DNA from: Paeniglutamicibacter terrestris
GTDB taxonomy: Bacteria > Actinomycetota > Actinomycetes > Actinomycetales > Micrococcaceae
Assembly: GCF_012271785.1 (NCBI RefSeq)
Contig: NZ_JAAWVT010000001.1
Location: 930,001-994,000 of the forward strand
DNA: 64,000 bases
Direction: 5' to 3'
In this document: in pieces, positions 52,261 to 56,630 of the stretch
Layout of the letters: each line of letters begins with the position of its first letter
Numbering within the stretch: the first letter of the stretch is position 1
The notes under the pieces: generated by a model
Database searches by the model: none
What the model was told of the DNA's origin: nothing
The model's input: the letters and a program-made list of their open reading frames with translations, nothing else
Translations under genes and position numbers: made by a program

Positions 52261-52294
52261 TCGATCTCCTGATGTTTGCGGCCGGACTGGCCTC

Positions 52295-52306
52295 GACAAC
52301 GATGTC
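52295..52306. promoter_or_regulatory. GACAACGATGTC operator copy 1
   Basis: Near-palindromic 12-mer (GACA/TGTC ends, CG centre) in the divergent region between the importer genes and lacI. It is repeated identically at 52374-52385 and as a perfect palindrome at 53961-53972. LacI-family operators typically have such a central CG. Confidence 0.7.
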
Positions 52307-52371
52307 AGGTACGATGTAAGCAGGATCACATCCACAATGTCAATAGGGTTCAAACTGAAGGAGCGATTTCT

Positions 52372-53424
52372 TTGACAACGATGTCTAATCGTTACCAGCC
52401 ACCGCTATCCCCGAATCGGCCGACCATGCGTCACGTGGCAACGCTTGCCGGCGTCGGGATCAAAACGGTGTCACGGGTGATGAATGAGGAGGCGGGCGTA
52501 TCGGAGGCAACCCGCACCAAAGTATTAGAAGCCTCCCGCCAACTGAACTACCAGTTGGATGTCACGGCCGGGTCCCTGCGTCGCGCCGGACGACGAACTC
52601 TCTCCGTCGGGTTGCTCCTGCCGAGCGTTTCCAACCCGTTCAGCGGCGAGATCAACAGGGCGCTCGAAGATGCACTCAGCGCTCGGGGCATCGCAGTTTT
52701 TGCTGCCAGCCTGGATGATGACCCACAGCGCGAGCAGTCCATCATTGCGGCATTTCTCGGCCGTCGCGTCGACGGGTTGGTGCTGACGCCTATAGCCAAA
52801 AACCAGTCGTACACAATCCCCGAGCACTCCCGAGATTTGCCCATGGTTTTCATTGACCGCGAGCCCGTGGGTGTGGATGCAGATGCGGTAGTCACCGACA
52901 ACGCCATTGGCGCCGCAAAGGCCGCCGCCCACCTATTGGCCCACGGACACACCAAAATCGCCTATCTTGGCGACCGCACCGATATCCAAACGGCCCGGGA
53001 ACGTAAACGAGGGTTCCTCGAAGAAATCGGCCGAGCCGGAATTCCTTCCTCCTCGGTGCCCATCCGTGAAAACCTGCACGACGAGGAAACGGCCAGGCAG
53101 GCAGCAATTGAGCTTCTGACCTCCGAAAACCCTCCCACCGCGATCTTCTCCAGTCAGAACCTCGTGACGTTCGGAACGATGCGCGCACTGAAGGAACTGG
53201 GCAAAAACCGGGAGGTGGCACTGGTCGGATTCGATGATTTCACCCTCGCCGACATGATGGATCCCGGCGTGACGGTCATTGCCCAACATCCCGATCGCAT
53301 CGGCGTCCGAACGGCCGAAAGACTGCTGGCACGGATTGATGGCGATCAGGAACCACCGCGCACCTATGTTGTCCCCTCCGAGCTGATTCAGCGCGGATCC
53401 GGCGAAATCCGCCCTCCGGCTTAG
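52372..53424 (+). CDS. LacI family transcriptional regulator
   Basis: 350 residues from a TTG at 52372, which has AAGGAG seven bases upstream; the ATG three codons later (52381) would be too far from this site. N-terminal LacI HTH: TMRHVATLAGVGIKTVSRVM, then hinge and sugar-binding core (ILLLP-like LLLPSVSNPFSGEIN, DGLVLTPI, FIDREPVG). Divergent from the importer genes. An operator copy overlaps its own start codon, suggesting autoregulation. Probable repressor of fructose import and of the GH32 gene. Confidence 0.9.
   Translation: MTTMSNRYQPPLSPNRPTMRHVATLAGVGIKTVSRVMNEEAGVSEATRTKVLEASRQLNYQLDVTAGSLRRAGRRTLSVGLLLPSVSNPFSGEINRALEDALSARGIAVFAASLDDDPQREQSIIAAFLGRRVDGLVLTPIAKNQSYTIPEHSRDLPMVFIDREPVGVDADAVVTDNAIGAAKAAAHLLAHGHTKIAYLGDRTDIQTARERKRGFLEEIGRAGIPSSSVPIRENLHDEETARQAAIELLTSENPPTAIFSSQNLVTFGTMRALKELGKNREVALVGFDDFTLADMMDPGVTVIAQHPDRIGVRTAERLLARIDGDQEPPRTYVVPSELIQRGSGEIRPPA
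52374..52385. promoter_or_regulatory. GACAACGATGTC operator copy 2, overlapping the lacI start
   Basis: Identical to the copy at 52295-52306 and 79 bases from it, which would allow looping by a LacI tetramer or dimer pair. It shares its first base with the TTG start codon. Confidence 0.65.
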
Positions 53425-53472: not shown

Positions 53473-53766
53473 ATGACCAAGACGTTATTTGCCGAGTTCA
53501 CCGTCAAGGAAGGCAGCGAAACCCGTGTTGCCGAGATGATGCTCGAATTAACCCAACTCGTGCGGCAAGAACCCGGGAACGAGCTGTTCCTGCCGTATCT
53601 GCGTGAGGAAGAACCCCGCAAATACTTCGTTTTTGAGGTCTACCGGGATGACGCCGCCTTCCAGGAACACATCACTGCCGCCTATGGCGCGCGATTTAAC
53701 GAAGAACTGGCCCTGCATATCGAAGAGCCAGCCTCCCAACTGACCTGGCTGACGCCGCTGCAGTAA
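53473..53766 (+). CDS. ABM-family (antibiotic biosynthesis monooxygenase-like) protein
   Basis: 97 residues, small ferredoxin-like barrel. LFAEFTVKEGSETRVAEMML, PGNELFLPYL, FVFEVYRDDAAFQEHITA match quinol monooxygenase YgiN-type proteins. It follows lacI by 48 bases with GAAAGGA before its ATG, so is likely co-regulated. Its link with fructan use is not obvious. Confidence 0.8.
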   Translation: MTKTLFAEFTVKEGSETRVAEMMLELTQLVRQEPGNELFLPYLREEEPRKYFVFEVYRDDAAFQEHITAAYGARFNEELALHIEEPASQLTWLTPLQ

Positions 53767-54011: not shown

Positions 54012-56630
54012 TTGAAAAAATCCACGATGTATCGGACACGAGGCGCCGCCGTTTTAACACTGGCCAGCCTGTCTCTGGCAGCAGCATTCGCAGGTTCCGT
54101 ACCCGCCTCGGCCGTGACACTGGGGGACGAACAACACCGACCGGCTTATCACTACACGCCGGAAAAGAACTGGATGAACGACCCCAACGGGATGGTCTTT
54201 TACAAGGGTGTCTACCACCTGTACTACCAGCACAACCCCTCCGGAAACACCTGGGGCAACATGTCCTGGGGACACGCAACATCCAAGGACCTTCTGCACT
54301 GGGAAGAGCAGCCGCTGGCCATCTCCACGGACGATGAGGAAGACGTGTTCTCCGGCAGTGTTGTCGTGGATTCAACCAATAGCTCAGGACTTGGTACGGC
54401 CAAGAACCCACCCTTAATCGCCATTTACACCAGCGCCTATAAGGAAGCTTCCGAGCATCGTGGCCTGCAGGCGCAGTCGCTAGCTTATAGTGTGGACGCC
54501 GGACAAACCTGGAAAAAGTACTCCGGCAATCCCGTCCTGAACCGCAACTCTGCCAACTTCCGTGATCCCAAGGTGTTCCGGTATGACAATCCCGCCGGTG
54601 CCGACTACTGGGTGATGACCGCGGTGGAAGCCCTCGAGCACAAGGTGGTGCTCTACAAGTCAACCGACCTCAAGAAGTGGAGTGCCCTGAGCGAATTTGG
54701 GCCAGCCAACGCGACCGGCGGGATATGGGAATGCCCCGACCTGTTCCCCTTGGCCGTGGACGGAGACAAGAACAACGTCAAGTGGGTCATGGTCGTGAAC
54801 ATCAACCCGGGCGGCATCGCCGGCGGCTCGGCCGGACAATACTTTGTCGGCGACTTCGATGGCAAGACCTTCACCTCGGATACCACCAAACCCGTCCCCG
54901 AGCTTCCTGCCGGAACCGTCCTTGAAGGATTTAACGACGGCAACTACGCCGACTGGACCGTGAACAATGAAACGGGCAACGAGGCTAAAGGACCGTTTGG
55001 TACTGCTCCCGCATCCGGAGCTCTTCCCGGACAGCAGGGCGTCACCGGCTACACCGGCGAGGGGCTAGTCAACTCGTTTAACGGTGGAGACTGGCCAACG
55101 GGCACCATGAAGTCCCCTGCCTTCACCATTTCGCAGGACTACATCAACTTCCTCATCGGAGGCGGCAAACACCCAAGGACATCAAACAAATTGGATAACA
55201 CTCCGCCCGAGGGAGAGCTGCTGTTCGACGGGTTCGAAGTGCCTGCCGGAACAACTCTGGCCGACTCCGGATGGACCGGAACAGAAGATCTGGCATCGAA
55301 GTACCAGCCCTTTGGCGGAGGCGGCAACCAAGCCATCGGTAGCCACCTGATCAACACCTTTGAAACCAACGGTGGAGGGGATGACCGACAGGGCACACTC
55401 ACCTCACCAACGTTCACCATCAATAAGGACAATCTCAGCATGCTCATCGGTGGAGGTCACCGCACCAATGACCCCACGCAGAGTCTAGAAGTTCAGCTGC
55501 TCATCGACGGCAAGGTTGTCCGTTCGGTGACCGGCGACAATATGGGCGCGATGAACTGGAAATCCTGGGATGTGGCGGAATTCGAAGGCCAGCCTGCGCA
55601 AGTGCGAATCGTGGATGCAGCCACCGGCGGTTGGGGACACCTCACCCTCGATCACCTGATGCAGACCGATGCCCCGGCAATTCTCCGTTCGGATGAAACA
55701 ACGGTCAATCTAGAAGTTGCCGGAAAGGTCGTCCGCACGACCACCGGCGCCAATAGCGAAGCCCTCGATTTGGCCTCTTGGAACGTTAAGGAATTCGCCG
55801 GACAGCAGGCACAGATCACCATCGTGGACAATAATAGGGACGGCTGGGGACACATCCTCGCCGATGAATTCATGCTGTCCGACCAACCCGTGGTCTCGGC
55901 ACTGGATACCTACGATTGGCTGGATTACGGCCGGGACTACTACGCCTCCGTCTCCTTCGCCAACATGCCAGATGACAAACGCGTCATGCTGGGCTGGATG
56001 AACAACTGGGACTACGCCAATGACATCCCTACCAACCCGTGGCGCAGTGCCATGGCACTGCCGCGCCAAGTAAAGCTCACGCAAACTCTCGACGGGCCTC
56101 GACTGACACAAAGCGCAGTACAACAAACCAACAAGCTGGCACAGAAGCCGAGCTATTCGAGCAAAAAAGCCAGTGTCATCCGGGAGGGAAGTACTCCCCT
56201 TCCGGCGTCCACCAACGGCCAGGTCCAACAGGTAGACATCACCTTCAACCCCGGGACCGCCACAAAATCCGGCATCACCGTGCTGGGTGATGAAAAATCC
56301 TCCACGGTCATCGGCTACGACTCCACCACGGGGAAGATGTTTGTTGATCGCAGAAACTCCGGCAACACGGCATTCCACTCCGCCTTCGCCTCCATTGAAG
56401 ATGCCCCGATCGCCCTAGACAAGGACGGCAACGTCACCATGCGGATCTATCTTGATCACTCCTCGGTGGAGGTCTTCGCCCAAAATGGTTTGCGGACCAT
56501 CACCGATCAGGTCTTCCCGAATGCCGGGGCAGACAAGATGGAATTGTTCGCCGAAGGCGGGAGTGCACAGCTGAAGAAACTGACCGTGACGCCATTGGAC
56601 CCATCAATGTTCGTCGCAGGGAACAAGTAA
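54012..56630 (+). CDS. Secreted GH32 fructan hydrolase (levanase/exo-inulinase type) with repeats inside the catalytic domain
   Basis: 872 residues from a TTG at 54012; an ATG at codon 6 is an alternative. A signal peptide ends near residue 34 (VPASA). GH32 catalytic motifs are WMNDPNG (54-60, nucleophile Asp57), FRDP (183-186, transition-state Asp) and WECPD (239-243, acid/base Glu240). The propeller is interrupted at about 302-630 by repeated beta modules, then resumes with DYGRDYYASVSF and ends in the GH32 C-terminal beta-sandwich with DHSSVEVFAQNG. It should release fructose from levan, inulin or sucrose outside the cell. There is no sortase motif or cell-wall anchor. Whether it is exo- or endo-acting, or a fructotransferase, cannot be told. 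Confidence 0.9.
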   Translation: MKKSTMYRTRGAAVLTLASLSLAAAFAGSVPASAVTLGDEQHRPAYHYTPEKNWMNDPNGMVFYKGVYHLYYQHNPSGNTWGNMSWGHATSKDLLHWEEQPLAISTDDEEDVFSGSVVVDSTNSSGLGTAKNPPLIAIYTSAYKEASEHRGLQAQSLAYSVDAGQTWKKYSGNPVLNRNSANFRDPKVFRYDNPAGADYWVMTAVEALEHKVVLYKSTDLKKWSALSEFGPANATGGIWECPDLFPLAVDGDKNNVKWVMVVNINPGGIAGGSAGQYFVGDFDGKTFTSDTTKPVPELPAGTVLEGFNDGNYADWTVNNETGNEAKGPFGTAPASGALPGQQGVTGYTGEGLVNSFNGGDWPTGTMKSPAFTISQDYINFLIGGGKHPRTSNKLDNTPPEGELLFDGFEVPAGTTLADSGWTGTEDLASKYQPFGGGGNQAIGSHLINTFETNGGGDDRQGTLTSPTFTINKDNLSMLIGGGHRTNDPTQSLEVQLLIDGKVVRSVTGDNMGAMNWKSWDVAEFEGQPAQVRIVDAATGGWGHLTLDHLMQTDAPAILRSDETTVNLEVAGKVVRTTTGANSEALDLASWNVKEFAGQQAQITIVDNNRDGWGHILADEFMLSDQPVVSALDTYDWLDYGRDYYASVSFANMPDDKRVMLGWMNNWDYANDIPTNPWRSAMALPRQVKLTQTLDGPRLTQSAVQQTNKLAQKPSYSSKKASVIREGSTPLPASTNGQVQQVDITFNPGTATKSGITVLGDEKSSTVIGYDSTTGKMFVDRRNSGNTAFHSAFASIEDAPIALDKDGNVTMRIYLDHSSVEVFAQNGLRTITDQVFPNAGADKMELFAEGGSAQLKKLTVTPLDPSMFVAGNK
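54915..55901 (+). repeat. Nested repeat modules inserted in the GH32 domain
   Basis: Codons about 302-630. A first half-module (303-384) ends TISQDYINFLIGGGKHP. A full module (404-545) contains TINKDNLSMLIGGGHR, then LEVQLLIDGKVVRSVTGDN and ATGGWGHLTLDHLMQTD. A second half-module (566-625) reads VNLEVAGKVVRTTTGAN and NRDGWGHILADEFMLSD. The two halves together make a second complete module, which suggests that one copy was inserted in the middle of the other. Confidence 0.7.

Follow-up and report, generated by a model that had tools for sequence, protein, structure and literature searches.

A GH32 enzyme with an interrupted catalytic propeller

What occupies the middle of the catalytic domain of a GH32 fructan hydrolase, and how did it come to be there? 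The question is raised by a gene for a secreted enzyme in the window, that is, the stretch of 64,000 nucleotides of Paeniglutamicibacter terrestris DNA analyzed here. An earlier note on this DNA had pointed to about 330 extra, repeat-bearing residues between the WECPD motif and the last propeller blade, and all motifs and coordinates were found as claimed:

54012-56630, + strand: gene of the secreted GH32 fructan hydrolase, 872 codons from a TTG start, with an alternative ATG start at 54027
54129-54908, + strand: first part of the catalytic propeller, residues 40-299, with WMNDPNG at 54-60, FRDP at 183-186 and WECPD at 239-243 (54726-54740)
54912-55205, + strand: N half of the outer module, residues 301-398, with LIGGGKHP at 381-388 plus a linker; HMM positions ~3-91 (L103)
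55206-55667, + strand: inner module, uninterrupted, residues 399-552, with LIGGGHR at 478 and LEVQLL at 492; HMM positions 1-154 (L103)
55668-55895, + strand: C half of the outer module, residues 553-628, with LEVAGKVVRTTTG, GWGHILADEF and LEVAGK at 567; HMM positions 92-154 (L103)
55896-56627, + strand: second catalytic part, made of the last propeller blade (WLDYGRDYYASVSF; WLDYG at 636) and the GH32 C-terminal beta-sandwich (Pfam match at residues 708-860)

The product of 54012-56630 is a GH32 member. It matches Pfam GH32N (1.6e-94, 317.3 bits, cut-off 22.1) and GH32C (4.1e-36, 124.8 bits, cut-off 21.9), its predicted model shows a five-bladed propeller followed by the C-terminal beta-sandwich, and it carries WMNDPNG, FRDP and WECPD, which we take to be the GH32 nucleophile, RDP and acid/base motifs, respectively. 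The enzyme would be of the levanase/inulinase type, with the outer module placed in the loop that joins the penultimate propeller blade to the last one. The GH32 exo-inulinase InuAMN8 from Arthrobacter sp. MN8 (8i12) has the same catalytic fold and 55% identity to the window enzyme, but lacks the insert, with ~9 residues in place of the ~336 of the window enzyme. By sequence alignment, the insert site lies between residues 285 and 295 of 8i12. Overall, the window enzyme probably carries a module, itself a likely fructan binder, that is split by a second copy of itself.

Self-similarity of the insert

Residues 301-628 follow the order half-module, whole module, half-module. In local alignments with 500 shuffles each, both halves resemble the middle module, the N half with a score of 99 (highest shuffle 68, Gumbel p ~1.6e-6) and the C half with one of 151 (highest shuffle 45, p ~2e-15), while the two halves show no resemblance to each other (p 0.14). 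Once joined, N and C halves align end to end with the middle module with a score of 222, against a shuffle mean of 35 (sd 6.2) and a highest shuffle of 68. Hence the view that the outer halves together make one module like the central one holds, with self-alignment scores above those of all shuffles.

Several positions are near-invariant across outer, inner and single modules: a W in the first strands, a D and a G ahead of TSPxF, the GGG motif, a D, and WGHxxxD. In addition, outer modules have H directly after GGGx (frequency 1.00, 119 rows) and the inner modules of the Micrococcales set have R at this position (frequency 1.00, 77 rows), a difference that could possibly reflect specialization of the inner copy.

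Predicted structure of the nested modules

A whole-protein AlphaFold2 model, built from 38 aligned relatives, reached a pLDDT of 87.4 and a pTM of 0.80. VIA-align matched it to 8i12 with Z 51.4 and rmsd 1.9 over 486 aligned residues (target 489 residues). Since these residues span positions 5 to 826 of the model, nothing is missing from the propeller, to which the insert is an addition. The insert was also modeled alone, from an alignment of 60 rows (pLDDT 92.3, pTM 0.85). Among the 50 VIA matches listed for this model, 34 extend from 1-9 to 330-340 yet align only 116-149 residues, 12 extend from 103-109 to 259-281, and the remaining 4 are multi-domain or ambiguous. Such ranges, from which rather than from coordinates the pairing of the halves was deduced, are those expected from one split sandwich enclosing one intact sandwich, and they support this arrangement. 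Recursive insertion of the A1-B1-C-B2-A2 type, with B and C independently folded, is likewise supported by the self-alignment, the relatives and the models. The second copy would occupy one surface loop of the outer sandwich, directly past the GGGxHP motif. Both models thus behave as one split and one intact domain, and not as the sequential trio that the earlier note had set as the outcome contrary to nesting.

The module is predicted to be a galactose-binding-like beta-sandwich. The top VIA match among those listed is a porphyran CBM (8xmz; 128 of 137 residues aligned, rmsd 2.7), whose Z of 12.0 is moderate, values under 8 being common for this tool. The CBM61 structure 2xom comes lower (Z 10.9, 138 of 145 aligned), and CBM16, CBM4-2 and CBM11 also appear in the list, intermixed with domains of other kinds, among them MAM and insecticidal toxin domains. 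With Foldseek, the best match to the insert was a reelin R56 / ApoER2 complex entry (E 9.9e-6). The fold class of the insert is common and is no proof of sugar binding, as fold likeness alone says nothing of function.

Distribution among relatives

A scan of genome contigs queried with the nested protein, and thus biased to nested relatives, found the half / full / half order in 79 of 80 loci; in the exception, L041, the frame ends early. At L023 and L028, the scored frame was the second GH32 gene of the locus. These two loci carry two neighboring GH32 genes, and the inner module of the second one is closer to the outer type than are other Micrococcales inner modules.

A less biased census of the order, with a whole-enzyme profile over 248 genomes, matched 43 genomes, from which 30 loci were taken: 17 are nested (the window's own among them), one is single (L115) and 12 have no module. 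These module-free enzymes have 5-24 residues at the insert site. The module also occurs in 34 of 249 genomes of Streptomycetaceae, a label that we infer, the closest nested modules among named plasmid records being those of Streptomyces. There, the 30 loci examined comprise 24 nested enzymes, two with a single inserted module (L155, L159) and four in which the module stands behind the C-terminal domain of an unbroken GH32. Of 15 genomes from the genus only 2 carry the module, and of 296 sampled phylum-wide only 3; no relative of the module was found in phage records or viral contigs.

One uninterrupted module at the identical GH32 site was observed in five proteins, Cat_684 and Cat_696 of Catenovulum together with those of L115, L155 and L159, and in these single-module relatives the two halves are joined directly. 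The comparison of one- and two-module relatives suggested by the earlier note therefore yielded zero-module, same-site single, nested and C-terminal types of GH32.

History of the nesting

The wider trees drew on 35 nested representatives, out of 133 nested-labeled frames with duplicates counted; near-duplicate proteins and short-cut frames (L041, L065) were removed ahead of counting or tree building. Outer modules group together in the module trees, and Micrococcales inner modules form one group, on a weak backbone. The single module of L159 sits within the outer-module group (97/93 in the Streptomycetaceae module tree) and its catalytic domain among nested enzymes (99/96). In addition, a clade of nested Streptomycetaceae rows excluding the singles was rejected (p-AU 9.7e-54). 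In its simplest reading, the L159 line has apparently lost the inner copy, leaving the outer module whole again. On the other hand, membership of the outer group was rejected for the L155 and L115 modules (AU p 0.002 and 0.0002), so that not every single shares the origin of L159. No common ancestral group unites the singles in these trees. A simple history, with the single form first and one nested gain, was not adopted in view of the rejected nested-only clade and of L155 and L115 outside the outer group. The split among singles and the weak backbones of the wider trees leave a wide range for the number and direction of events.

A different type of change is visible in L142, a nested GH32 (frame from 220), where the first half of the outer module and that of the inner one share 90.6% DNA identity across 202 columns. 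At the protein level, their identity is 84%, against a median of 37% for the first halves of 118 nested proteins. This identity, far above that allowed by the usual divergence, suggests a recent exchange between the two copies. Nesting would have started with a module copy entering its own loop, and later loss of the inner copy and exchange of inner and outer sequence would have remodeled it in some lineages. Judging from sequence, the nested arrangement is kept by many soil actinobacteria and appears to be occasionally undone.

Identity of the module and probable link to fructans

The insert has no Pfam match above cut-off, the best being RRM_9 (15.7 bits) and NPCBM (13.4 bits), two identities that were dropped as both lie below the Pfam cut-off; it has no NCBIfam match either. 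Searching its sequence against solved structures gave nothing convincing. With an inner-module profile run against the sequences in the PDB, allowing E values as high as 10, two bean lectin-like chains alone were matched (E 0.003), over only ~30 residues, and these were set aside. The nesting explains why Pfam fragments GH32 enzymes that bear the insert.

Two fructan-binding modules of GH32 enzymes offer comparisons, as described in the available part of PMC10076258. CBM38 (X39) is the inulin-binding module of the Paenibacillus macerans CFTase, where residues 32-389 form two predicted beta-sandwich domains. Like the window module it is GH32-associated, and X39 binds fructan. It differs in that the X39 region is about twice the size of the window module, lies near the N-terminus and has no nesting described in that part of the source. 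The window module may be CBM38 or close to it; when plasmids were searched by tblastn with one module, no match came from Paenibacillus. CBM66 of Bacillus subtilis SacC is also a fructan-binding beta-sandwich CBM on a GH32 enzyme; unlike the window module, it shows no insertion or nesting in what this text says of it. CBM66 is absent among the VIA and Foldseek matches listed for the insert.

The tie to fructans comes mainly from a plasmid of Catenovulum, a marine gammaproteobacterium, that bears a fructan-type locus. Two of its GH32 enzymes have a single unbroken module at the same insertion site, a GH32-domain protein has two N-terminal modules, and another GH32 protein has three C-terminal modules. 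Right after SusC and SusD, the locus encodes a three-module protein (L092:26295-28253) with zero families in both Pfam and NCBIfam. The slot directly after SusC/SusD is the usual position of a surface glycan-binding protein, and the three-module protein is a candidate surface fructan-binding protein. Its position within a fructan locus suggests fructan binding for the module, and binding of levan or inulin is plausible in this context. This locus is the best evidence of the portability of the module and of its fructan tie, which is one of association. The module, absent from Pfam and NCBIfam and probably fructan-binding, hence occurs free-standing, appended and inserted.

In the window enzyme, both modules would tether the enzyme to levan or inulin. 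A module anchored by two strands, and not by one flexible linker, would have a fairly fixed geometry relative to the active site and to the other module, and a pair so arranged would give avidity for the polymer.

Comparison with known insertions

Modules inside catalytic domains have precedents. According to the available part of PMC7848910, GH10 xylanases of the Xyn10C/Pm25 type have two CBM4 within the catalytic domain that aid binding of complex substrate. The window enzyme similarly has two modules interrupting its catalytic domain, but the CBM4s are in tandem and un-nested, in a TIM barrel acting on xylan. The same source mentions SusG, a GH13 amylase with CBM58 inside its catalytic domain, as in the window enzyme, at one level only. 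As for recursion, the HABAS domains of RNA polymerase beta' (Si3) are described in the accessible text of PMC11515920 as inserted recursively, some of them domain-swapped. Like the window insert, they place a domain within a copy of its own kind, in an unrelated protein. Nested domain insertion in general is catalogued, as indicated in the portion of PMC13114784 at hand. Insertion of CBMs into catalytic domains and recursive self-insertion are both known, and searches of open-access papers turned up no account of such nesting in a GH32 enzyme. The window enzyme provides a clean natural instance of a domain nested in its own homolog. Zero, single, nested and apparently reverted states survive in related enzymes, and their coexistence makes it possible to compare by experiment how nested domains arise, fold and are lost.

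Alternative explanations

The two-level nesting claimed in the earlier note is borne out by the AlphaFold models, by single-module relatives with the same site and by the kinship of the L159 module with nested outer modules. That the three segments are instead independent sequential domains, alike as ordinary divergent tandem repeats, is very hard to maintain: the repeat-like character of the region is the sole point in its favor, against dissimilar N and C halves that together complement the middle module, single-module relatives that fuse both halves directly, and VIA fold ranges and an L159 placement that contradict it. The further claim, insertion of a copy at the same internal point, stands as the best fit and is less exclusive, as separate tandem duplications of the two halves would give an identical a-a'-b'-b order. 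Such duplications, or a strand-swapped fold pairing the N half with the second half of the inner module, appear improbable. Swapping has a precedent in some of the recursive HABAS insertions (PMC11515920, available part), but no low-rmsd match among the 50 VIA matches listed links the N half to the inner second half (~6 to 262), and a single one (2q1f, 109 to 316) is ambiguous on this point. Half-duplications would moreover require a three-half intermediate, and none was seen among the surveyed architectures, bar frames cut by a locus end or a stop.

A question of function remains within the nested reading. The insert might serve stability, spacing or oligomerization and bind no sugar, which we consider rather unlikely. 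The module has no known family match, its fold class includes non-sugar domains (MAM, reelin, Stig cyclases), and a loop deletion alters stability in the zero-insert InuAMN8 (PMC9260423, in the part available). On the other hand, the three-module protein adjoins SusC/SusD within a fructan locus, other GH32s carry the module as a C-terminal appendage, and the top VIA match and several others listed are CBMs. Tentatively, the nested, sugar-binding reading could be extended further: a CBM family uncatalogued in Pfam and NCBIfam might multiply by placing copies in its own loop within a catalytic domain, building in actinobacterial fructanases a rigid two-module relay from polymer to active site that losing the inner copy would reverse and exchange between copies would remodel.

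Genomic context and other observations

The genome holds one further GH32 gene, and a search with the insert gave a single match genome-wide. Upstream of the GH32 gene lies one regulator gene:

52276-53424, + strand: LacI-family regulator (Pfam LacI 5e-15, Peripla_BP_1 1.6e-31)

This protein possibly regulates the GH32 locus. A PfkB kinase and a sugar-type ABC transporter are encoded farther upstream on the opposite strand, a neighborhood consistent with sugar use. A small gene of ~97 codons (53473-53766) separates the regulator gene from that of the GH32 enzyme; judged by eye, its product presumably resembles an antibiotic-biosynthesis-monooxygenase-type protein.

Two loci of other organisms are also of note. 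A GH32 of Pseudalkalibacillus (L129:4447-8031, 1194 aa) is interrupted elsewhere, ahead of WECPT, by 3-keto-disaccharide-hydrolase-like domains and one copy of the module. On visual inspection, a short piece immediately preceding WECPT resembles the beginning that the first of these domains lacks, so that the insertion here, too, may be nested or permuted. On a Sinorhizobium sojae plasmid (plasmid match H7), the module's second half is matched over a short length at L093:4001-4207 (46% over 56 residues), and a GH32-like frame lies ~1.2 kb upstream in the same locus.
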